Positions 43,801 to 53,599 of a stretch of DNA of 64,000 nt are shown here, piece after piece. This DNA comes from Bradyrhizobium guangdongense. Lineage in GTDB: Bacteria; Pseudomonadota; Alphaproteobacteria; Rhizobiales; Xanthobacteraceae. Each line of letters begins with the position of its first letter. Position 1 is the stretch's first letter. The notes under the pieces were generated by a model that worked only from the letters and a program-made list of their open reading frames with translations, made no database searches and was not told the origin of the DNA. The stretch covers positions 1-64,000 of the forward strand of contig NZ_PPPT01000018.1 in the NCBI RefSeq assembly GCF_006483445.1. The letters are read 5' to 3'. The position numbers and the translations under genes are program-made.

Positions 43801-44392
43801 CGAAGCCGTCAAATGGTACGACCGCGCCGCGCAGGCCGGCGTGGTGCCGGCCACCTTCCGCCTCGGCACGCTCTATGAGAAGGGCCTGGGCGTGAAGAAG
43901 GACGCCGACATCGCACGGCGCTACTACACGCAGGCCGCAGAGCGCGGCAACGCCAAGGCGATGCACAATCTCGCGGTGCTCGACGCCGACGGCGGCGGAC
44001 GCGGCGCGAACTACAAGAGCGCAGCGACCTGGTTCCGCAAAGCCGCCGATCGCGGCGTCGCCGACAGCCAGTTCAACCTCGGCATCCTCTATGCCCGCGG
44101 CATCGGCGTCGAACAGAACCTCGCCGAGTCCTACAAATGGTTCAGCCTCGCCGCCGCGCAGGGCGACTCGGATGCGTCGGCCAAGCGCGACGATGTGGCC
44201 AAGCGCCTCGACCCGCAGTCGCTCGCCGCCGCAAAACTCGCGATCCAGACGTTCAGCGCCGAGCCGCAGCCCGATGACGCCGTCAACGTGGCCTCGCCCG
44301 CTGGTGGCTGGGACAGCGCGCCCGCGCAGGCCGGCACCAAGCCCGCGCCGAAGCCGGTCGCGACCAAGCGCGCGGCGTCCGCGGCGCATTAG
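40886..44392 (+). CDS. PodJL-type polar localisation protein with Sel1 repeats
   Basis: The 1168-residue protein starts with a ribbon-helix-helix-like patch (IDPSVRERAEAAARRAGMSLNDWL). A Pro/Tyr-rich region (about 170-235) and a long series of coiled coils (about 245-590) follow. After a Pro/Ala-rich linker there is one membrane helix near 797-820 (SLLVGASVVVIVLGTFKMAM) and a second disordered linker. The C-terminal part (about 938-1110) has at least four Sel1-type repeats (for example AVKWYDRAAQAGVVPATFRLGTLYEKGLG). This order matches PodJ of Caulobacter and PodJL of Rhizobiales, where the cytoplasmic part recruits polar proteins and the periplasmic Sel1 part meets the cell wall. A peptidoglycan-binding end was not seen. 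Confidence 0.88.
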   Translation: MNSRVSWSVDGIDPSVRERAEAAARRAGMSLNDWLTSTLGETAPPNFRAPYDPYQQQQLPSQESRDVADIHQRLDAITRQIETISKPAAPRADVSREQGVARQLNDAISRLDARLSQISKPQGPARPAPVETRQRQAEAVERAAAQVYRSSPPLSPASLDVAVAEIAARQNELDNFAPRQMPPRAVPPIAPMAAPYAPPQQTYMPPPAYMPPQATYAPQPAYNPQPAYAPPPAPPPPGPDFSALERHLIKITSQIESLQRPDNIEQSIAAFRSELAEIRHAITEAMPRRAIESIENEIRSLHRRIDETRSSGSSDGQALAGVERALSEIREALRTLMPAEQLRGYDEAIRNLGAKLDMILRASDDPSTVRQLEDAIGALRAIVSNVASNEALGRLADDVQLLSSKVEQISRVSSNSNGNGNAEGFAILEQRLAALTEALEARERRPAESFSTEHLEGAIRALSDRFDRMQVGNDSASTFAHLEQRVSYLLERIEAASDPRNGNLSRVEDGLHDILRHLERQQATYAALAESRNTASQPDPGMFDMVKRELSDIRFSQSETNRSTQDSLEAVHSTLGHVVDRLAMIEGDLRAVRTAPPAPAPQTFAPSMPIEQPMARAAMPQQAPKYDPKPDMKPELQNPAAAQGVPQGPGQGAFVAAPREFHAATPAAPMPPPMPMAAPLAPPVPPRAISEILEPHTAPARAAIAPELPPDHPLEPGTRPGGRPATPSERIAASENAISEIPSAPKEPVSSSSFIAAARRAAQAAAAQPPEKQGRAAKAAAAGKAKGAEGPSTITSKIRSLLVGASVVVIVLGTFKMAMNLLEGGSTTPPLPAMENSSGAPASQTLTPADTGARPSAPEQITPSMTSPTPLGKQSLNNPPPASTAPGAQVAIPTAPAAAAPPLAPADITGAIPTTTPSRARLGQVQVPPTERLPDGIGGPVLRAAAMKGDATAAYEIGVRFAEGKGVATNYDEAVKWYDRAAQAGVVPATFRLGTLYEKGLGVKKDADIARRYYTQAAERGNAKAMHNLAVLDADGGGRGANYKSAATWFRKAADRGVADSQFNLGILYARGIGVEQNLAESYKWFSLAAAQGDSDASAKRDDVAKRLDPQSLAAAKLAIQTFSAEPQPDDAVNVASPAGGWDSAPAQAGTKPAPKPVATKRAASAAH

Positions 44393-44402
44393 TCGCATAC
44401 TC

Positions 44403-44434
44403 CGTCATGGCCGGGCTTGTCCCGGCCATCCACG
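44403..44434. repeat. Half element of the CGTCATGGCCGGG repeat family
   Basis: Only one arm (CGTCATGGCCGGGCTTGTCC.., 32 bases) is present, directly after the PodJL gene. In frame it reads MAGLVPAIHV, which can mislead the start call of the following gene. Confidence 0.8.
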
Positions 44435-44451
44435 TGCGTCAACATACGACC

Positions 44452-44742
44452 ATGCATGGCGGATGGGTCTACATCCTGGCGAGCGCACCAAACGGCGTTT
44501 TGTATGTCGGCGTGACGAGCGACCTTGTTCGCCGCACTTACGAACATCGAAACGGACTCGTTCCCGGGTTCACGAAGAAGTACGGGGTCAAGCTGCTCGT
44601 CTATTTCGAGCGTTATGAGGACATTCAGACGGCCCTCCAACGCGAACACAACATCAAGCACTGGTCGCGGACGTGGAAGGTAAGGCTGATCCTCAGAGAC
44701 AATCCGGAATGGAAGGATTTGTACGACACGATCGTGCAGTGA
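44452..44742 (+). CDS. GIY-YIG domain protein
   Basis: The 96-residue single-domain member of the UPF0213-like GIY-YIG family shows WVYILASAPNGVLYVGVT at the N-terminus, the conserved Arg in LVRRTYEHRNGLVPGF and the late Glu/Asn region. The family has a nuclease fold, but the cellular role of these short proteins is unclear. The ATG at 44452 is chosen because codons from 44407 are part of a dispersed repeat. Genes of this family often sit next to repeats in rhizobial genomes. Confidence 0.9.
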   Translation: MHGGWVYILASAPNGVLYVGVTSDLVRRTYEHRNGLVPGFTKKYGVKLLVYFERYEDIQTALQREHNIKHWSRTWKVRLILRDNPEWKDLYDTIVQ

Positions 44743-45101
44743 CGTGGGGCGACGCGATCCATCCCGCCTCATGGCCGGGCATGTCCCGGCCATCCACGAC
44801 CTTCCGGGCCAATTGCACCAAAGAACGTGGATGCCCGGGACAAGCCCGGGCATGACGAGCCTCAGGAGCGTACCGTTGCCCGTGAATGACCACGCCACGC
44901 GTTAATCTCAATTCTTCACCACGGCCGCATTCGTGATCGGCGCCGCGGTGAATAATGCGCCTCCCGCGACAATTCGTGGTCCCGCAGGCGGACAAATTCC
45001 GCTATGCAGGGACGCGGCAATCGTTCCGCCTTCCGCGAGCATTCCGCAATCTCGTTTGAGCATGATCGTCACGCTCGACGGCCTCGCCGGAACCCGAACG
45101 A
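44743..45101. other. Intergenic region with one repeat
   Basis: It contains the complete inverted repeat at 44769-44855. The rest (44856-45101) shows no gene, hairpin or clear promoter. Confidence 0.5.
44769..44855. repeat. Complete inverted repeat, CGTCATGGCCGGG family
   Basis: Arms of about 30 bases (44769-44798 and 44826-44855) share the GCCCGGGACAAGCCCGGGCA core with the element at 40616-40709. Confidence 0.85.
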
Positions 45102-46019: not shown

Positions 46020-46789
46020 TGAAGCGCGCGCTGATCGCGGCCTGTCTCCTGCTCGCGCCCTGCACTGCCGCGCGCGCGGAACGGCTGATCGTCTCGGTCT
46101 CCAACCACCGCGTCACGGTGACGCCGAACTATTCCGGCGAGGAGCTGGTGCTGTTCGGCTCGGTAGAGAAGGATGCCGCGACGCCGGCCGATCGCACCGC
46201 CTATGACCTCGTCGTGACCGTGATGGGCCCGCGCGCCGACATGGTGACGCGGCGCAAGGAGCGCACGTTTGGCATCTGGATCAACACCGACTACCGGCAA
46301 TTCTTGCAGGTGCCGACCTATCTGGCGCTGTTCGCCAATCGTCCGTTCGACGCCATCACCTCGCCCGAGGTCGCGCGTCGCCAGCAGATCGGGCTCAACA
46401 ACGTGCTGCTGACCCAGCGCGTCAGCGGCGACTTTGGTGACGTGGTGCCGAACGATGTGTTCCGAAGCGCGTTCATCCGGCTGCGCACCCAGCACGGGCT
46501 CTATCGCGAGGACGGTGCGGCGGTGACGTTCCTGACGCCGACCCTGTTCCGCACCGGCATCCCGCTGCCGGGGGAGGTGCCGATCGGCACCTACCAGGTC
46601 GAGATCAAGCTGTTTGCGAACGGCGCGCTGGTGACCAAGACCGAAACCGCGTTCGAGATCGTGAAGGTCGGTTTCGAGCAGTTCGTCGCGACCAGCGCGC
46701 GGCAGAACGGGTTTGGGTATGGATTGGTGACGGCCACGATGGCGCTGTTGACGGGTTGGCTGGCGTCGATCGTGTTTCGAAAGGATTGA
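46016..46789 (+). CDS. TIGR02186-family membrane-anchored periplasmic protein
   Basis: The start at 46016 (MMKRALIAACLLLAPCTAARA) overlaps the TauE stop and gives 257 residues. A signal peptide is followed by a beta-rich periplasmic domain (RVTVTPNYSGEELVLFGSVEK) and a C-terminal helix (VTATMALLTGWLASIVFRKD) that anchors it. It is found with TauE/SafE exporters, where it may serve the transporter from the periplasmic side. Its molecular function is not known. Confidence 0.88.
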   Translation: MMKRALIAACLLLAPCTAARAERLIVSVSNHRVTVTPNYSGEELVLFGSVEKDAATPADRTAYDLVVTVMGPRADMVTRRKERTFGIWINTDYRQFLQVPTYLALFANRPFDAITSPEVARRQQIGLNNVLLTQRVSGDFGDVVPNDVFRSAFIRLRTQHGLYREDGAAVTFLTPTLFRTGIPLPGEVPIGTYQVEIKLFANGALVTKTETAFEIVKVGFEQFVATSARQNGFGYGLVTATMALLTGWLASIVFRKD

Positions 46790-46798
46790 GTCGGGACA

Positions 46799-46901
46799 AA
46801 GCATGATCCGGAAAAGTGCGCAGCGGTTTTCCGAGAAGATCATGCTCAAACAAAAGAGCTAAAGCGCGATGACGATTCGACCTGAAGCCATCGCGCTTTA
46901 G
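46799..46901. repeat. Rhizobiales intergenic repeat (GCATGATCCGGAAAAGTG family)
   Basis: The left part (about 46799-46846) contains GCATGATCCGGAAAAG and its near complement CGAGAAGATCATGC. The right part is a hairpin with perfect 13-base arms CTAAAGCGCGATG (46859-46871) and CATCGCGCTTTAG (46889-46901). Similar sequences are very common in Rhizobiales genomes. The right arm contains the TAA stop codon of the convergent ABC permease gene. Confidence 0.82.
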
Positions 46902-47665
46902 CGCGCAGCCGCCTGCCAGGCGAGCAGGCGCTGCTCGACGACCGACATCGCGACTGAGGTGAGATAGCCGGTGGCGCCGAGCAGGATGACCCCGGCGAAC
47001 AGGTCGGCGGAGCGGAACGCACGGGCCGACAGCAGCACCCAGTGGCCAAGCCCGTCGAGCCCGGCCAGGATCTCGCAAACCACCGACAGGATCAGCGCGA
47101 CGGTCAGGCTGAGCCGCATGCCGGCCAGAATGTCGGGCAGCGCCGACGGCAGCGCGATCTTCGCGATCACCGCCATGCGCGACATCTGCAAGGCGCGGGC
47201 GACCTCGTAGAGCCGCGGCTCGACCGCGGCAAAGCCGTGAATTGTCGCGAGCATGATGGGCCAGATCGCACCGAAGGCGATGACGAACAAGGCCATGCCC
47301 TGTGTCAGCCCGAGCATCGCGATCGCAACCGGGATGATCGCCGAGACCGGCAACGGTCGTAGGAATTCCAACGACGGCGCGACATAGGCCCGCATCAGCT
47401 TCGACGATCCGATCAGCGCGCCGAGCGCAATGCCGGCGATCGAGGCGGCGAGCCAGCCATAGGCCATGTGCTCGAGCGTGCCGATGAGCTTGCTGGCGAG
47501 GTCGCCGCTCGAAAAGCCGCGCACCAGCGCAGTCCAGGCGCGATCCGGACCGGGCAGGAACACCGGCGACACCAGCTTCAGGTTGGCGACGAGCTGCCAA
47601 GCCGCGATGAAGCCGGCTGCGACGAGGATGCTGGCGACGCGCCAGAGGATCGCCGCGCGATTCAT
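46898..47665 (-). CDS. ABC transporter permease (SsuC/TauC-like), second permease
   Basis: The 255-residue permease has about six helices and the cytoplasmic EAA-type loop (YEVARALQMSRMAVIAKIALPSALPDILAGMRLS, in part). It is of the nitrate/sulfonate/taurine type. Its ATG overlaps the stop of the first permease gene. It is clearly different in sequence from that permease, so the importer probably works as a heterodimer, while most SsuC/TauC-type importers use one permease gene. The stop codon is supplied by the arm of a dispersed repeat. Confidence 0.92.
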   Translation of the reverse strand: MNRAAILWRVASILVAAGFIAAWQLVANLKLVSPVFLPGPDRAWTALVRGFSSGDLASKLIGTLEHMAYGWLAASIAGIALGALIGSSKLMRAYVAPSLEFLRPLPVSAIIPVAIAMLGLTQGMALFVIAFGAIWPIMLATIHGFAAVEPRLYEVARALQMSRMAVIAKIALPSALPDILAGMRLSLTVALILSVVCEILAGLDGLGHWVLLSARAFRSADLFAGVILLGATGYLTSVAMSVVEQRLLAWQAAAR

Positions 47666-48426
47666 GTGTTGTCTCCGGCGAGTGCCGCGCGGCCGAACAG
47701 GCGGCGCTGGGCGGCGATCAACAGGATGTTGAGCGCGTAGCCGATCACCCCGATCCAGACGAGATAGGCGAGCATCAGGTCGGCGCGCAGCGCCTGCTGC
47801 GCCAGCATGATGCCGGCACCTAGGCCGAGCGGATTGATCGCGATCTCGACGGTGACGGCGACGATCAGCGCGATGCCGGCCGACAGGCGGAAGGCGACGA
47901 ATATCCGCGGCAATGCTGCGGGGATGACGATCTTTGCGATGCGTTGCGCCGGCGACAACCGCAATGCGCGCGACACCTCCATCAAACGCGGCTCGATGCT
48001 GCGCACCGCAGCCCGCGTCAGGATGAGCATCGGCCAGACGCAGGCAAAGGCCACGATCACGATCTCCATGCGGTAGCCGAAGCCGAGCGAAATGAGCGCG
48101 ATCGGCAGCAGCGCGATCGAGGGGATCGGGCGGATCGCCTCGATCGTCACCTCCATCAGCCGGTCGAGCGGCCTCGAAATCCCGAACGCCACGCCGAGCA
48201 TGAGGCCGATGCCGCCACCGGCCGCGAGCCCCACGAAGGCCGCGAACAGCGTGTCACGGGTGGCGGCCAGGATGGAGAGATCGCCGATCGCGGCGCCCAG
48301 CGCCACCACGATCGCACTCGGCGGCGCGAGGCTGTCGCTCTGGAGGTGGCTGAGGCGCGCCCACAATTCGAACGCCAGCAATGCCGCCGCCGGCAACAGA
48401 ACGGGTTTGGCGCGCGCAAGGGTCAA
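47662..48426 (-). CDS. ABC transporter permease (SsuC/TauC-like), first permease
   Basis: This 254-residue permease has about six helices and an EAA loop (LMEVSRALRLSPAQRIAKIVIPAALPRIFVAFRLS, in part). The start codon is TTG at 48426, overlapping the ATPase gene stop as TTGA. It pairs with the second permease encoded directly downstream. Confidence 0.9.
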   Translation of the reverse strand: MTLARAKPVLLPAAALLAFELWARLSHLQSDSLAPPSAIVVALGAAIGDLSILAATRDTLFAAFVGLAAGGGIGLMLGVAFGISRPLDRLMEVTIEAIRPIPSIALLPIALISLGFGYRMEIVIVAFACVWPMLILTRAAVRSIEPRLMEVSRALRLSPAQRIAKIVIPAALPRIFVAFRLSAGIALIVAVTVEIAINPLGLGAGIMLAQQALRADLMLAYLVWIGVIGYALNILLIAAQRRLFGRAALAGDNT

Positions 48427-49229
48427 TGTTCGGTCGCCTTGATGAAGTCGAACAATTGCCGGCGCAACCTCAAAAACTCCGGATGCTCGCGCGTGGCGAG
48501 CTGGTCGCGCGGGCGCGGCAGGTTGACGTCGATCTCGATGCCGATCCGCCCCGGATGCGGCAACAAACCAATGACACGGTCGCCGAGATAGATGGCCTCG
48601 TCGAGATCATGGGTCACGAAGATCACGGTGGTGCGGCTCGCCTGGGTCAGCGACAGCACTTCGTCCTGAAGGCCCTGCCGCGTCATCGCATCCAGCGCGC
48701 CGAACGGTTCGTCCATCAGCAGCGTCGTCGGCTCCTGCGCAAGGCAGCGCGCGATCTGCAAGCGCTGCTGCATCCCGCCCGACATCTCGGTCGGGTATTT
48801 GTCGGCGTGGCCGGGCAGGCCGACCTTGCGCAGCAGGGCGTCGATGCGCCCGTTGCGCTCGCGCGAGGGCACGCGGCTCGCTTCGAGCGCCAGCGAGATG
48901 TTGCCGGCGGCCGTCCGCCACGGCAGCAGTGCCTTGCCATAATCCTGGAACACGACCGCGACCTCGCGCCGCGGCTCGGTCATCGGTTCGCCGTTGAAGG
49001 TCACGGCGCCCTCGCTCGGCCGGTAAAGGCCGGCCGCGAGCCGCAACGCCGTCGTCTTGCCGCACCCGGAAGCCCCGACGATGCAAACGAACTCGCCCGG
49101 CCGCACCTCCAGATCGAGTTGCTCGATGATGGTCTTGCCGCCGAGACGCAGAGTCGTACCGTTGAAGGCGATCAGGGGTGTGCCACGCCGCGCTGCTTTC
49201 GCCTCATCGAGCCTTGCTACGACGCTCAT
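48423..49229 (-). CDS. ABC transporter ATP-binding protein (SsuB/TauB-like)
   Basis: The 268-residue ATPase has Walker A GASGCGKTT, a Q-loop in AVVFQDYGKALLPW, signature MSGGMQQR, Walker B TLLMDEPFGALD and the H-loop in IFVTHDLDEA. It energises import through the two permeases. The ATG overlaps the stop of the regulator gene upstream, so the whole module is coupled. Confidence 0.94.
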   Translation of the reverse strand: MSVVARLDEAKAARRGTPLIAFNGTTLRLGGKTIIEQLDLEVRPGEFVCIVGASGCGKTTALRLAAGLYRPSEGAVTFNGEPMTEPRREVAVVFQDYGKALLPWRTAAGNISLALEASRVPSRERNGRIDALLRKVGLPGHADKYPTEMSGGMQQRLQIARCLAQEPTTLLMDEPFGALDAMTRQGLQDEVLSLTQASRTTVIFVTHDLDEAIYLGDRVIGLLPHPGRIGIEIDVNLPRPRDQLATREHPEFLRLRRQLFDFIKATEH

Positions 49230-49930
49230 GAGGTCTCCTTGTCATCAGGCGGATAGACGAAATTGATGGTCGAGCGCAGATGCGCCGCCAGCATGTCCTG
49301 TGCAGCCGGCAGATCGCGCGCAAGCACACAATCGGCGAGCATCTGGTGGCTGCGGATGAAATCCTCGCCGCTGTCGATCGCGCGCATCATGACGCGGCGA
49401 TAGCGATAGGCCTGGTCGTAGAGGTCGGAATGGGCGGCCAGCATCCGTTGCGAACCGCAAGCCGCGAGCAGCGCCGTGTGAAAACCCTTGTGCAGGTGGT
49501 CGAAATCGGCGGCGCCCTCGCGGAACTCGTTGCCGGTGCGCTCGATATGCCGGCGCATGCGGTGCAGCGCGCTCAGGATGCCGGCTTCCCAGGCGTCATC
49601 GCCGTGGATGATGGCGAGGCGGATGGCGGCGATCTCGACCGCCGTGCGCATGCAGGTGATATCGGCGAGATCGTCACGGCTGACCTCGGCGACACGAAAA
49701 CCGCGCTGGCCGATGGCGACGATCAGCCCGCGCGACATCAACCGCGAGAGGCCTTCGCGCAGCGGCGTAGCGCCGATCTCGTAGCGCTGCACCAGGTCGA
49801 CGATGCCAAGCCGCGCTCCCGGCGCGAGGCGTCCCGCCAGGATGTCCTGCTCGACGAGACTTGCGGCACGTTCGCTCAGCGTGCTGGCCTCGCCGGTGGG
49901 ACGTTCAAGCGGGCGTTCGACGGCCGGCAT
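49226..49930 (-). CDS. GntR-family regulator with FCD domain
   Basis: The 234-residue protein has an N-terminal winged helix (LVEQDILAGRLAPGARLGIVDLVQRYEIGATPLREGLSRL, residues about 25-85) and a C-terminal FCD helical bundle with metal/ligand residues (Asp in ADFDHLHKGFH, further His near HSDLYDQ and HQMLADC). FCD regulators usually sense carboxylic acids. The gene is inside the transporter operon, between the binding protein and ATPase genes, so it probably controls this operon and the divergent FAH/cyclase genes. Confidence 0.93.
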   Translation of the reverse strand: MPAVERPLERPTGEASTLSERAASLVEQDILAGRLAPGARLGIVDLVQRYEIGATPLREGLSRLMSRGLIVAIGQRGFRVAEVSRDDLADITCMRTAVEIAAIRLAIIHGDDAWEAGILSALHRMRRHIERTGNEFREGAADFDHLHKGFHTALLAACGSQRMLAAHSDLYDQAYRYRRVMMRAIDSGEDFIRSHQMLADCVLARDLPAAQDMLAAHLRSTINFVYPPDDKETS

Positions 49931-49940
49931 CGCGGGATCC

Positions 49941-50893
49941 TCAGTTCAGCACGAGCTTCGAGGGATCGAGCTTCGATTGCAGCATCTTCTGCGTCGTCAT
50001 GACATCGATCCACCAGACGAGGTTGCCTGGCTTGAGATTGGGCTCGGCCTGGTTCGGCGGCGTCGCCTTGACGAGATCGAGGGGCTGCTTCGTGAATTTT
50101 GCGATCGCAGCGGACGCTTTCTCACGGTCGCCGTTGACGATGACCGCGGCTTCCGCGATCGCCTCACGGAATTTTTTCACGGCGGCGGCATTCTTCTCGG
50201 CCCATTCGCGCGATGCGGCGTAGAAGATGATCGGATCGGTGCGCGCGAGATCGTTGGCATAGCGCGCGCCGACCGAGCCGAGCCCGGCGTTGGTCATGCG
50301 CGTCACGAATGGCTCAGCGGTCAGCACCGCGTCGACGCCGCCCGATTTGATGATGTCGGCCATGGTCGGGAACGTCACTTCGACGAAGTTGACGCTCTTG
50401 GGGTCGACGCCCTTCTCGACCAGCCATTGACGAACAGCACGTGCAGGAAGGCGTTCAGCCCGGGCGCGCCGACTTTCTTGCCGACGAAATCCTTCGGCTC
50501 CTTGATGGTGATGCCGTTGCGGACGAAGGCCGTGATCGCGGTGTTGGAGGTCGGGTTCATCACGGTTGCGCCGGCGATCGCGACGAGGTCGAGACCGCCG
50601 TCGGCGGCTTGCAGAAAAACGGTGGAGGTCGGGCCGCCGATCTGAATCGAGTTCGACAGGATCGCCGCTGGGATATTCGAATTGATCGCGATCGGGGTCA
50701 TCTCGACGTCGAGTCCGTGCTTTTTGAAGATGCCCTCGTCGACCGCGACCATCGCGGAGGCGCAGTCGGTCGTCGCGGTGCAGCCGACCTGAATCTTCGT
50801 CTGCGCAACGGCGCCGGCCGTCGCGGCCAAGGACACGCCGAGACCGAGTGCGAAAGCCGTCAAAACCCGCGTTACCTGGCTACACCCCACCAC
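49941..50893 (-). pseudogene. ABC transporter substrate-binding protein, frameshifted
   Basis: The gene starts at GTG 50893 (GGAGGG just upstream) with a signal peptide (VLTAFALGLGVSLAATAGAVAQ), then VGCTATTDCASAMVAVDEGIFKKHGLDVEM, a nitrate/sulfonate/taurine-type (NMT1/THI5-like) binding protein. After FLHVLFV, near 50428-50436, the frame breaks. Reading on in that frame gives SRRASTPRAST and a stop at 50375. A one-base shift restores a good sequence (WLVEKGVDPKSVNFVEVTFPTMADIIKSGG.., shown in part) that continues to the true end at 49941. One base is missing (or two added). Both halves keep protein-like composition, so the lesion is recent or is a sequencing error. Confidence 0.88.
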
Positions 50894-50978
50894 GCTTCCC
50901 TCCAGTTATATTCTTTGCTCTTGATTATCGATATTTTCTTTGATCATATATTTACAACAATAGCAAGGGGTGCCCAAG
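50894..50978. promoter_or_regulatory. AT-rich divergent promoter of the transporter and FAH genes
   Basis: About 60 bases (50905-50963) are strongly AT-rich in an otherwise GC-rich region, with short palindromes such as ATCGAT and TGATCA. This is the probable site of both promoters and of binding by the GntR/FCD regulator. No single operator can be fixed. Confidence 0.5.
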
Positions 50979-51968
50979 GTGAAGCTCGCAACATTCAAAT
51001 CGGACGGTCGGGACAAGATCGGCCTCGTCCATGCCCACGACAGCCAGCTGTTTGATCTCGCCGCGGCGGACGCGCGGGAGGGGCAAAATGATCCGGCCTT
51101 TGCGTCGATGCTGGCGCTGATCGATGCCGGTCCGCGCGCGCTCGACCGGGCTGCGGCGTTGTTTGAGAAGCACGGGCGGGACCCGGCGTTGTCGGCGGCG
51201 GTCAGCGATGTCGCCATTCTCGCGCCGGTGCCGGAGCCGAGGCAGATGCGCGACGGCATGTCGTTTCCGTTGCACATCCTGCAGGCGCCGCGCGGGCAGC
51301 GAAAGCTCGCCGCGCGCGCCAAGGGGGACACGGCCGAGCTGGCACGGATCGATGCCGAACCGCTCGGCGAGCTGCCCGAGGTCTATCGCAAGCAGCCGAT
51401 CTTCTACATCACCAACCGCTTCAGCGTCCGCGGCACCAATACGACGGTGAAATGGCCGCGCTACAGCAAGGTGATGGACTACGAGCTCGAGTTCGGGATC
51501 ATCACCAGGAACAAGGGCGCAAACATCTCCGCGGCGAAGGCCAGGGATCACATCTTCGGCTACACCATCTTCAACGATTTCTCGGCACGCGACGCGCAGC
51601 GAATCGAGATGGAGGGCCGGCTCGGTCCGGCCAAGGGCAAGAGTTTTGACGGCGGCAATGTGATGGGACCCTGGATCGTGACGCCGGACGAGATTGGCGA
51701 TCCCTACAAGCTGAAGATGGAAGCGCGCGTCAACGGCGAGACCCGCTCAAAGGGTGTCTCCGACGGCATGCTGTTCTCGTTCGAGGAGATCATCGCCCAC
51801 GTCACGCAGGACGAGACGCTGATGCCCGGCGAATTCATCGGCTCCGGCACCGTCGGCAATGGTTGCGGGCTCGAGCTCGGCTGGTATCTCGAGCATGGCG
51901 ACACGGTCGAGCTCGAGGTCGAGAAGATCGGCATTTTGAAGAACCGGGTCGAGCGGCAGGACGTCTAG
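50979..51968 (+). CDS. Fumarylacetoacetate hydrolase (FAH) family protein
   Basis: FAH-family enzymes hydrolyse, decarboxylate or isomerise beta-diketo acids with a Mg or Mn ion. The GTG at 50979 (MKLATFKSDGRDKIGLVH), with AAGGGG 8 bases upstream, gives 329 residues; a GTG at 50970 overlaps that site. Metal-ligand motifs are visible in DYELEFGIITRN and GYTIFNDFSARDAQ, with the later FDGGNVMGPWIVTPDE. It is the first of two catabolic genes divergent from the ABC importer, so it may act on the imported compound. Confidence 0.92.
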   Translation: MKLATFKSDGRDKIGLVHAHDSQLFDLAAADAREGQNDPAFASMLALIDAGPRALDRAAALFEKHGRDPALSAAVSDVAILAPVPEPRQMRDGMSFPLHILQAPRGQRKLAARAKGDTAELARIDAEPLGELPEVYRKQPIFYITNRFSVRGTNTTVKWPRYSKVMDYELEFGIITRNKGANISAAKARDHIFGYTIFNDFSARDAQRIEMEGRLGPAKGKSFDGGNVMGPWIVTPDEIGDPYKLKMEARVNGETRSKGVSDGMLFSFEEIIAHVTQDETLMPGEFIGSGTVGNGCGLELGWYLEHGDTVELEVEKIGILKNRVERQDV

Positions 51969-52010
51969 ACCGCTCGGCGACTGACAACAACAATCCATCG
52001 AGGAAACGCC

Positions 52011-52787
52011 ATGGCGCGAAAGCTGATCGACATCTCCGTTCCCCTGCAAAACGACGTGCCCGCCGATCCGCCGGGGGCCCATCCGACGATCCAGTACATC
52101 GATCATCAGCAAGGCCTGCCGCGCATGCTGCAGTTCTTCGACGGGTTGAAGGCTGCGGATCTGCCGGACGGACAAGGCTGGGCCGTCGAGCAGGTCTCGC
52201 TGTCGACCCACAACGGAACCCATCTCGACGCACCCTGGCACTTTCATCCCACGATGAACCGTGGCGAGCGCGCCTGGACCATCGACGAGGTGCCGCTGGA
52301 GTGGTGCTTCCAGCCCGGCGTGAAGCTCGATTTCCGCCACCTTCCCGACGGCTACGTCGCCACTGCCGCAGATGTCGAGGCCGAGCTCAAGCGCATCGGT
52401 CATGAGTTGAGGCCGCTCGACATCGTCGTCGTCAACACCAGCGCCGGCGCCAAATATGGTCGGCAGGACTACGTCACCTCAGGCTGCGGCATGGGCTATG
52501 AGGCGACCATGTACCTGCTCGAGCGCGGCGTGCGGCTGACCGGCATCGACGGCTGGAGCTGGGACGCGCCGTTCGTCTACACCGCGAAGAAATATGCCGA
52601 GACCAAGGACGCCAGCCTGATCTGGGAGGGCCACAAGGCTGGCCGTCATATCGGCTATTGTCACCTCGAAAAGCTGCACAATCTCGAACTGCTGCCGTCG
52701 ACAGGCTTCACGGTGTCGTGCTTCCCGGTCAAGATCGAACGCGCCTCGGCAGGGTGGACGCGAGCGGTCGCGATCCTCGAGGGCTAG
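52011..52787 (+). CDS. Cyclase-family (kynurenine formamidase-like) metal hydrolase
   Basis: The 258-residue protein has the family signature STHNGTHLDAPWHF, with the His/Asp/His metal ligands. Further conserved segments are YVTSGCGMGYEATMYLLERGV and the C-terminal GFTVSCFPVKIERASAGWTRAVAI (in part). Relatives hydrolyse formamides, cyclic amides or lactones. It lies 42 bases after the FAH gene and is very likely in its operon. Confidence 0.92.
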   Translation: MARKLIDISVPLQNDVPADPPGAHPTIQYIDHQQGLPRMLQFFDGLKAADLPDGQGWAVEQVSLSTHNGTHLDAPWHFHPTMNRGERAWTIDEVPLEWCFQPGVKLDFRHLPDGYVATAADVEAELKRIGHELRPLDIVVVNTSAGAKYGRQDYVTSGCGMGYEATMYLLERGVRLTGIDGWSWDAPFVYTAKKYAETKDASLIWEGHKAGRHIGYCHLEKLHNLELLPSTGFTVSCFPVKIERASAGWTRAVAILEG

Positions 52788-52828
52788 ACCAGACGACCGT
52801 TCGCTCGCAAAGAGGGGCGTGGCAACAG

Positions 52829-53599
52829 CTACGCCTCGATCACCGTCGGTACGCCGGGCTCGAGCAGCCGCAATCGCGGACCGAAGCCGAGGACGTCAAA
52901 GGTCTTGCGCAGATCCTCGCTGCTTTGGCGAAAGTGCTTCCAGCCTTCGGTATGCACGGGCACGATCATGGCGTCGGGAAAGGCGCGCGCGGTCTCGATG
53001 GTGTCGTTGGTGTCCATGGTGACGTGGAACGGCCCGCGCGTCTGCGCGGCGCCGGCGAAGGGCAGCACCACGCCGCATTTGAAGCGGCGCGCGACTTCGG
53101 CGACGCCGTCGAACCAGGTGGTGTCGCCGCTGATATAGACCGGGCGCGTGTCCTTGTTGCTGGAGGAGACGACGAAGCCGATGACGTCACCGGCGAGCGG
53201 CTCGATGCCGGCCGGGCCGTGACGCGCGGGCGTCGCCGTGATCGTCAGTCTTGCACCGTCGCGATTACGGATCTCGGTCGTATCCCAGGGCGCGAAACCT
53301 TCGACATGGCCGCCCAGCCGTTTGGCGCCGATTTGCGTCGTCAGCACGCGCTTCACTTTCGTGAGCAGCTCGCGGCCGGAATTGTCGAGATTGTCGGAAT
53401 GCTGGTCGTGGCTGAGCAGGACGGCATCGACCGGGCCGATGGCATCGGCCTTGAGCGCGGGGCCGATGGTCTTCTCCAGCGTCACATGCGGCAGTTGATA
53501 GGCGCCCGGCGCGTCGAAGGTGGGATCGGTGAGCAGGCGAAAACCGTCGATCTCGATGAGCGCGGTCGGACCGCCGATCAGCGTGATGGATATGGACAT
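52829..53599 (-). CDS. UlaG-like MBL-fold hydrolase
   Basis: The 256-residue protein is of the UlaG-type metallo-beta-lactamase fold (about 230-260 residues, no signal peptide). The metal motif is LLSHDQHSDNLD; other ligands fit TPARHGP, ISGDTTW and PVHTEGW. UlaG itself is an ascorbate-6-phosphate lactonase, but the substrate here is unknown. GGAGTCCATC precedes the ATG. It lies 12 bases after the EamA exporter gene and is probably co-transcribed with it. Confidence 0.9.
   Translation of the reverse strand: MSISITLIGGPTALIEIDGFRLLTDPTFDAPGAYQLPHVTLEKTIGPALKADAIGPVDAVLLSHDQHSDNLDNSGRELLTKVKRVLTTQIGAKRLGGHVEGFAPWDTTEIRNRDGARLTITATPARHGPAGIEPLAGDVIGFVVSSSNKDTRPVYISGDTTWFDGVAEVARRFKCGVVLPFAGAAQTRGPFHVTMDTNDTIETARAFPDAMIVPVHTEGWKHFRQSSEDLRKTFDVLGFGPRLRLLEPGVPTVIEA

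Follow-up and report, generated by a model that had tools for sequence, protein, structure and literature searches.

Between positions 46,898 and 52,787 of a 64,000-nucleotide stretch of Bradyrhizobium guangdongense DNA (contig NZ_PPPT01000018.1 of assembly GCF_006483445.1; hereafter, the window), seven genes form a divergent arrangement: an ATP-binding cassette (ABC) importer operon containing a GntR/FCD transcription regulator, facing a pair of genes for an FAH-family hydrolase and a cyclase-family metal-dependent hydrolase. This arrangement is a real unit and not a chance juxtaposition, because all seven genes are found in the same order in 61 of the 80 named FAH loci obtained from a scan of genome contigs. 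We tentatively favour, at just under even confidence, the view that it is a regulated operon for breaking down a small enol-lactone, the most likely class being 4-hydroxy-2-pyrones such as triacetic acid lactone.

An earlier note, made from the letters of the window, had described an uptake-and-breakdown module at this place. Its gene positions were confirmed, Pfam backs every label, the regulator lies inside the importer operon and the FAH-family and cyclase-family genes are divergent from it. As to the interpretation, the module character was borne out, the cyclic amide suggested as substrate gained no support, and the oddity seen in the importer's two permeases was borne out in part. The 4-base overlaps that it gave for the importer genes are present at three junctions (permease/permease/ATPase/regulator) but not between the regulator and binding-protein genes, which are separated by 10 bases. 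The features are:

46898..47665, minus strand: ABC permease 1 (PF00528, 65.6 bits)
47662..48426, minus strand: ABC permease 2 (PF00528, 80.4 bits)
48423..49229, minus strand: ABC ATPase (PF00005; top NCBIfam models nitrate/sulfonate-type, with scores below their cut-offs)
49226..49930, minus strand: GntR/FCD transcription regulator, within the importer operon (PF00392 and PF07729)
49941..50893, minus strand: NMT1/SsuA-type substrate-binding protein, frameshifted (PF09084, 44.3 bits, N-terminal half; PF13379, 35.2 bits, C-terminal half)
50926..50950, strand not assigned: operator-like site TATCGATATTTTnnnTGATCATATA between the divergent genes, unique in the genome when up to 3 mismatches are allowed
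50970..51968 (true start probably 50979), plus strand: FAH-family hydrolase (PF01557, 193.4 bits)
52011..52787, plus strand: cyclase-family metal-dependent hydrolase, the proposed ring-opening enzyme (PF04199, 132.9 bits)

Conservation of the unit, its operator-like site and its importer

The conserved order is permease, permease, ATPase, regulator and binding protein on one side of the gap, and FAH and cyclase on the other. Of the 61 complete loci, 57 are plain and 4 contain an extra or doubled match. The remaining FAH loci comprise two short contigs running from the ATPase to the cyclase, one locus with regulator, FAH and cyclase, three with FAH and cyclase, and 13 with FAH only. The same gene set, which the earlier note had proposed to look for in other genomes, is present in hosts that include Bradyrhizobium, Tardiphaga, Rhizobium, Neorhizobium, Oryzicola, Corticibacterium, Tianweitania, Gemmobacter and Haematobacter, the complete module spanning Bradyrhizobium to Rhodobacterales. 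On plasmids of Terrarubrum and Haematobacter, the full set likewise occurs in that order. The module is also carried by a record with the title Frankia sp. RB7 (L132), a name that looks wrong.

Within Bradyrhizobium, an FAH at least 80% identical to that of the window is accessory, being present in 58 of 195 genomes. Among the matches listed, a cyclase gene lies within 2.5 kb of this close FAH in 55 of the 58 genomes, and a permease gene within 8 kb in 53. One of the three genomes without a listed nearby cyclase (G179, locus L040) does carry it on direct inspection; the five permease misses consist of three on another contig and two without a match at 1e-60. By contrast, the cyclase counts as near-core, with matches at E ≤ 1e-60 in 188 of the 195 genomes, mostly in single copy, and it often occurs without FAH or importer. 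The co-conservation of the two halves on which the earlier note had staked its module therefore holds when starting from FAH, but only in part when starting from the cyclase.

There is good evidence that the site in the divergent gap is a putative operator of the GntR/FCD regulator, because of its position, its uniqueness in the genome and the way it tracks the presence of the regulator. Its core, ATCGATA in either orientation, was found in the 250 bases preceding FAH in 60 of the 64 loci that have the regulator, which are not 64 independent events because many come from one genus, and in none of 16 loci without it. The four regulator-bearing loci without this core carry TTATCGACA instead. In matched control windows from the same loci, the core was present in 156 of 5,314 (2.9%; 2.6% for regulator loci and 4.3% for the others), and counting the core in one orientation gave 52 of 56 versus 2.0%. 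One Bradyrhizobium locus (L155) keeps the regulator, operator-like site, FAH and cyclase, and importer genes were not found beside them. The regulator scored 148.6 bits against the CsiR model (cut-off 218), and a promoter scan of 46700-53000 returned 0 sigma-70-like sites against 0.7 expected.

The importer resembles SsuABC and TauABC in having an NMT1/SsuA-type binding protein and a related permease and ATPase. It differs from them in its in-operon regulator and in its two unlike permeases (35% identical to each other), which score far below the equivalog cut-offs for SsuC (100.9 and 86 bits against 347) and TauC (92 and 64.5 bits against 342). Two permeases are unusual among Ssu/Tau importers, and to that extent the surprise voiced in the earlier note was justified. 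In this importer's own family, however, they are the rule, because distant operons contain a separate ortholog of each permease: permease 1 is 70% identical to its Terrarubrum ortholog and permease 2 is 67% identical to its own, and both are 51–54% identical to their Variovorax/Aminobacter orthologs. The binding-protein gene is divided into two open reading frames (50375-50893 and 49941-50378). One base near 50427 that is present in 10 of 10 aligned relatives is missing from it, so that the gene is either a pseudogene or the result of a draft-assembly error.

Exchange of partners beside the cyclase

The strongest clue to enzyme function comes from the exchange of the cyclase's partners. Relatives of the window cyclase (63–89% identical) have as neighbour an FAH of the window's type, a fumarylacetoacetase (TIGR01266) or a 3,5-dioxohexanoate enzyme of the BKACE family (NF053538); those adjoining one of the latter two are 67–73% identical to it. 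All four FahA-type partners scanned, from Variovorax and Aminobacter, are over the TIGR01266 cut-off of 375 (431–527 bits), and all three BKACE partners scanned are over the NF053538 cut-off of 430 (514–552 bits). The latter, in Chelatococcus, Sphingopyxis and Porphyrobacter, occupy the FAH position beside the cyclase, but belong to a different protein family, an acetyl-CoA user by its name. By family name or general specificity, these substitute enzymes act on 3,5-dioxo acids to yield acetoacetate or its CoA ester; EC 3.7.1.2, fumarylacetoacetase, also acts on other 3,5- and 2,4-dioxo acids. Excerpts of one study describe BKACE15 as active on 3,5-dioxohexanoate (PMC11961710). The window genome contains a separate 3,5-dioxohexanoate-type enzyme gene (L214; G000:C279:25447-26358), which we did not count for the module because it lies away from it, beside ABC ATPase genes unlike those of the module.

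Further linked genes concern acetoacetate and lactones. In Aminobacter SR38, the orthologous importer, cyclase and FahA genes adjoin a divergent acetoacetate-CoA ligase gene; both permeases, the binding protein and the ATPase each have an ortholog there (51–61% identity over the Variovorax/Aminobacter pair). A Rhodococcus plasmid carries 3-oxoacid CoA-transferase A and B genes near its cyclase locus. In Aminobacter, Chelatococcus, Azospirillum and L056, the adjoining genes include one for an SMP-30 lactonase. The window genome encodes one acetoacetyl-CoA synthetase that exceeds its cut-off, elsewhere than in the module.

Paired cyclase and FAH genes are met repeatedly across orders, and in Actinomycetota too, together with transporters of the ABC, MFS, TRAP and Liv types. 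FAH or FahA lies no more than about 7.5 kb away at nine of 15 cyclase loci outside the genus, drawn from the phylum and including L054 and L068, and 17 of 23 annotated plasmid loci of our own choosing have FAH, FahA or BKACE. At one plasmid locus (L209), the FAH relative is annotated as 2-keto-4-pentenoate hydratase. As a rough chance level for this pairing, with 23 first-look FAH candidates in 6.75 Mb, an FAH would be expected in some 5% of 15-kb stretches taken at random.

The window FAH itself is predicted to share the fold of these hydrolases. Its AlphaFold model (predicted local distance difference test (pLDDT) 88) matches YisK, which we take to be an oxaloacetate decarboxylase (Z 36.1 over 293 residues, root mean squared deviation 2.0), and the fumarylacetoacetases 5ti1 (Z 32.4) and 1qcn (Z 31.8) over nearly the whole model length. 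The motifs RD-x6-H, D[YF]ELE and FNDFSARD are present in 28 of 29 alignment rows (the window counting twice). They were compared with the catalytic Asp/His and the Glu-x-Glu/Asp metal residues of fumarylacetoacetase, for which the profile alignment leaves the D/H register ambiguous. The protein probably starts at 50979 (GTG), because annotated relatives begin at the matching position and the GTG upstream of it is not conserved in several relatives (for example L004, L008, L011 and L017). By analogy with fumarylacetoacetase (EC 3.7.1.2), whose fold it matches and which as true FahA takes its place in the Variovorax and Aminobacter operons, the window FAH may carry out the same cleavage of a 3,5-dioxo acid; at about 330 residues it is shorter than fumarylacetoacetase (about 440). 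A second FAH paralog (73–78% identical) occurs without the cyclase at L042-L049, adjoining enoyl-CoA hydratase and CoA-transferase III genes at L046 and 3-hydroxyacyl-CoA dehydrogenase and MFS genes at L042.

Proposed route and competing explanations

Because the exchanged partners, by family name or general specificity, cut 3,5-dioxo acids, and 4-hydroxy-2-pyrones are the rings that yield such an acid on hydrolysis, a compound of this class would suit both enzymes. In the route that we infer, with its substrate, both reactions and direction of regulation, the importer would bring the compound into the cell. The cyclase-family enzyme, via its metal site, would hydrolyse the ring open to the 3,5-dioxo acid, and the FAH-family enzyme would hydrolyse the C–C bond between the two keto groups to give acetoacetate and a carboxylate. 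An enzyme encoded elsewhere would then activate acetoacetate to acetoacetyl-CoA, and the GntR/FCD protein would control both divergent transcripts via the single gap site. Triacetic acid lactone would be the simplest fit and the smallest case, with acetate as the second product. The end of riboflavin catabolism by LumW, LumY and LumX offers a likeness, in that a pyrone is opened and the path ends in acetoacetate and another acid. It differs in using a 40 kDa cobalt hydrolase followed by a hydratase and an aldolase, and the FAH of that cluster (LumV) has no assigned role in the excerpted text (PMC12746152). An open literature search in a limited library, which is not proof of absence, found nothing on the operon described here or on bacterial catabolism of triacetic acid lactone, and no paper joining a cyclase family protein, the FAH family (or BKACE), a gene cluster and degradation.

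Several results weigh against this route. The window FAH scores 58.9 bits against TIGR01266, far below the cut-off of 375.3, and its nearest solved fold is that of YisK, which leaves other FAH chemistry open. Six of the 15 non-genus cyclase loci have no FAH, FahA or BKACE nearby, and 5 of the 23 chosen plasmid loci have no annotated partner in the stretch shown, the plasmid gene table being incomplete; two of these five (L203 and L210) lie among transposase genes. NF053538 is over its cut-off at 11 places in 10 of the 22 genomes searched, and none of the six places inspected, one of them in the window genome, has a cyclase in the stretch. The family name is thus not specific, as members also occur without the cyclase. 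Finally, fde-like clusters pair the same cyclase with ring-cleaving oxygenases, so the substrate may be an aromatic ring-fission product and the physiological ring may be larger.

This last point underlies an alternative that we consider unlikely but that fares best among its rivals: the module would degrade a ring-fission fragment of flavonoid or other aromatic catabolism, made extracellularly or by other genes, with the cyclase opening its lactone and FAH cutting the product. The naringenin (fde) operon of Herbaspirillum seropedicae, which presumably has a cyclase gene and an FAH gene, and its fde-like counterparts resemble the module in bringing these two families together. On plasmids, genes for a VOC dioxygenase, a Rieske protein and an FAD-oxidoreductase, in the style of fdeC/D/E, cluster with cyclases 66–71% identical to that of the window and with FAH nearby; other clusters have VOC and FAD genes without Rieske. 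The genus is legume-associated. However, the FAH of the fde-like clusters is just 27–35% identical to that of the window, which has an ABC importer and a GntR regulator instead. The 64 kb window contains no relatives, at 1e-8, of the VOC and FAD-oxidoreductase queries (two B. anthina proteins) or of the BKACE and SMP-30 queries from related operons, and the importer-linked operons examined have no oxygenase gene in the operon.

It is less probable still that the cyclase is an amidohydrolase of the isatin hydrolase or kynurenine formamidase type, acting on a cyclic amide or an N-formyl compound. Among solved sequences, the window cyclase comes nearest to isatin hydrolase A (3e-6) and kynurenine formamidase (6e-4), and it shares with them the PF04199 family and the metal motif HxG[TA]HxDxPxH, which is present in 34 of 34 alignment rows (the window counting twice); its identity to 13 relatives in differing gene contexts is 63–89%. 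Yet the GLQC/GLAS sequence, given as the isatin hydrolase signature in excerpts of PMC6117287, is absent from all 34 rows, the score against the arylformamidase/kynurenine formamidase model TIGR03035 is 35.9 bits against a cut-off of 223.05, and the names of the cyclase's substitute partners refer to dioxo acids and not to amides. We considered substrates of the cyclic amide and isatin kinds and set them aside. Of the substrates put forward in the earlier note, the cyclic or diketo compound agrees with the new evidence, as does the lactone, whereas the cyclic amide gains nothing. The predicted structure of the cyclase was poor (mean pLDDT 45.8) and was excluded from the analysis. At L071 and L072, where the cyclase gene lies downstream of genes for RidA, an acyl-CoA dehydrogenase and a fused FAD/Oxidored_FMN protein, the same cyclase may belong to another pathway.

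The cyclase outside the module

We examined 20 stretches in Bradyrhizobium with a cyclase outside the module. In seven, a lone cyclase lies between DUF192 and carbamoyltransferase genes, a site that holds the whole module in L036, L038 and L039. In eight others its neighbour is a CRP-type gene, accompanied in seven by TRAP DctP (by comparison) and in one, L086, by DctM (by Pfam); the remaining five have other surroundings. Two modules (L035 and L037) lie beside the same CRP-type gene. As module and lone cyclase occur at common sites, the cyclase stays, so the uptake and cutting genes are those that come, go and get exchanged. At L080-L088, except L087, the near-core cyclase ortholog is transcribed divergently to TRAP genes, with CRP/FNR and Mla-type genes next to it. 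This TRAP–CRP arrangement matches, by gene order alone, the surroundings of blr6059 of B. diazoefficiens, which is listed as a cyclase family protein and as induced in microoxia (protein log2 change 1.5, transcript 2.6-fold, in excerpts of PMC6515984).

In a cyclase tree (83 sequences, FastTree, midpoint root, several low supports), from which no dated gain or loss was drawn, FahA-partnered cyclases group together with one partnerless cyclase (L185). Most cyclases with Sphingobium/Burkholderia-type FAH also group, and the module and lone cyclases of Bradyrhizobium intermingle. That the cyclase is a near-core enzyme with an unrelated function, such as one linked to microoxia, beside which the FAH–importer half merely settled, would suit its wide distribution, its frequent occurrence alone or beside TRAP genes and the behaviour of blr6059, but is very unlikely given that the cyclase follows FAH in 61 of 61 complete modules and that the pair recurs with four transporter types across orders.

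The module is flanked by genes for a TauE-type permease, a metallo-beta-lactamase-fold protein, an EamA transporter and a LysR regulator. Elsewhere in the window, a GIY-YIG open reading frame (44407-44742, within 44389-44995) opens with a MAGLVPAIHV-like peptide that, by eye, seems repeated in overlapping open reading frames, perhaps as a repeated palindromic element.

To our knowledge, triacetate lactonase (EC 3.1.1.38) is an activity without an assigned gene. A wider proposal, which we regard as doubtful, is that the cyclase is a bacterial 4-hydroxy-2-pyrone opener and would provide the sequence for this orphan enzyme. It would then act in a widespread two-step route, with uptake by ABC, TRAP, MFS or Liv-type transporters and cutting by FAH, fumarylacetoacetase or BKACE, whose ring-opening step would be near-core in Bradyrhizobium. 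If true, this would name a reaction class for a highly conserved, uncharacterised cyclase found in 188 of the 195 Bradyrhizobium genomes sampled, and would provide a breakdown route for polyketide-type pyrones in soil and the rhizosphere.

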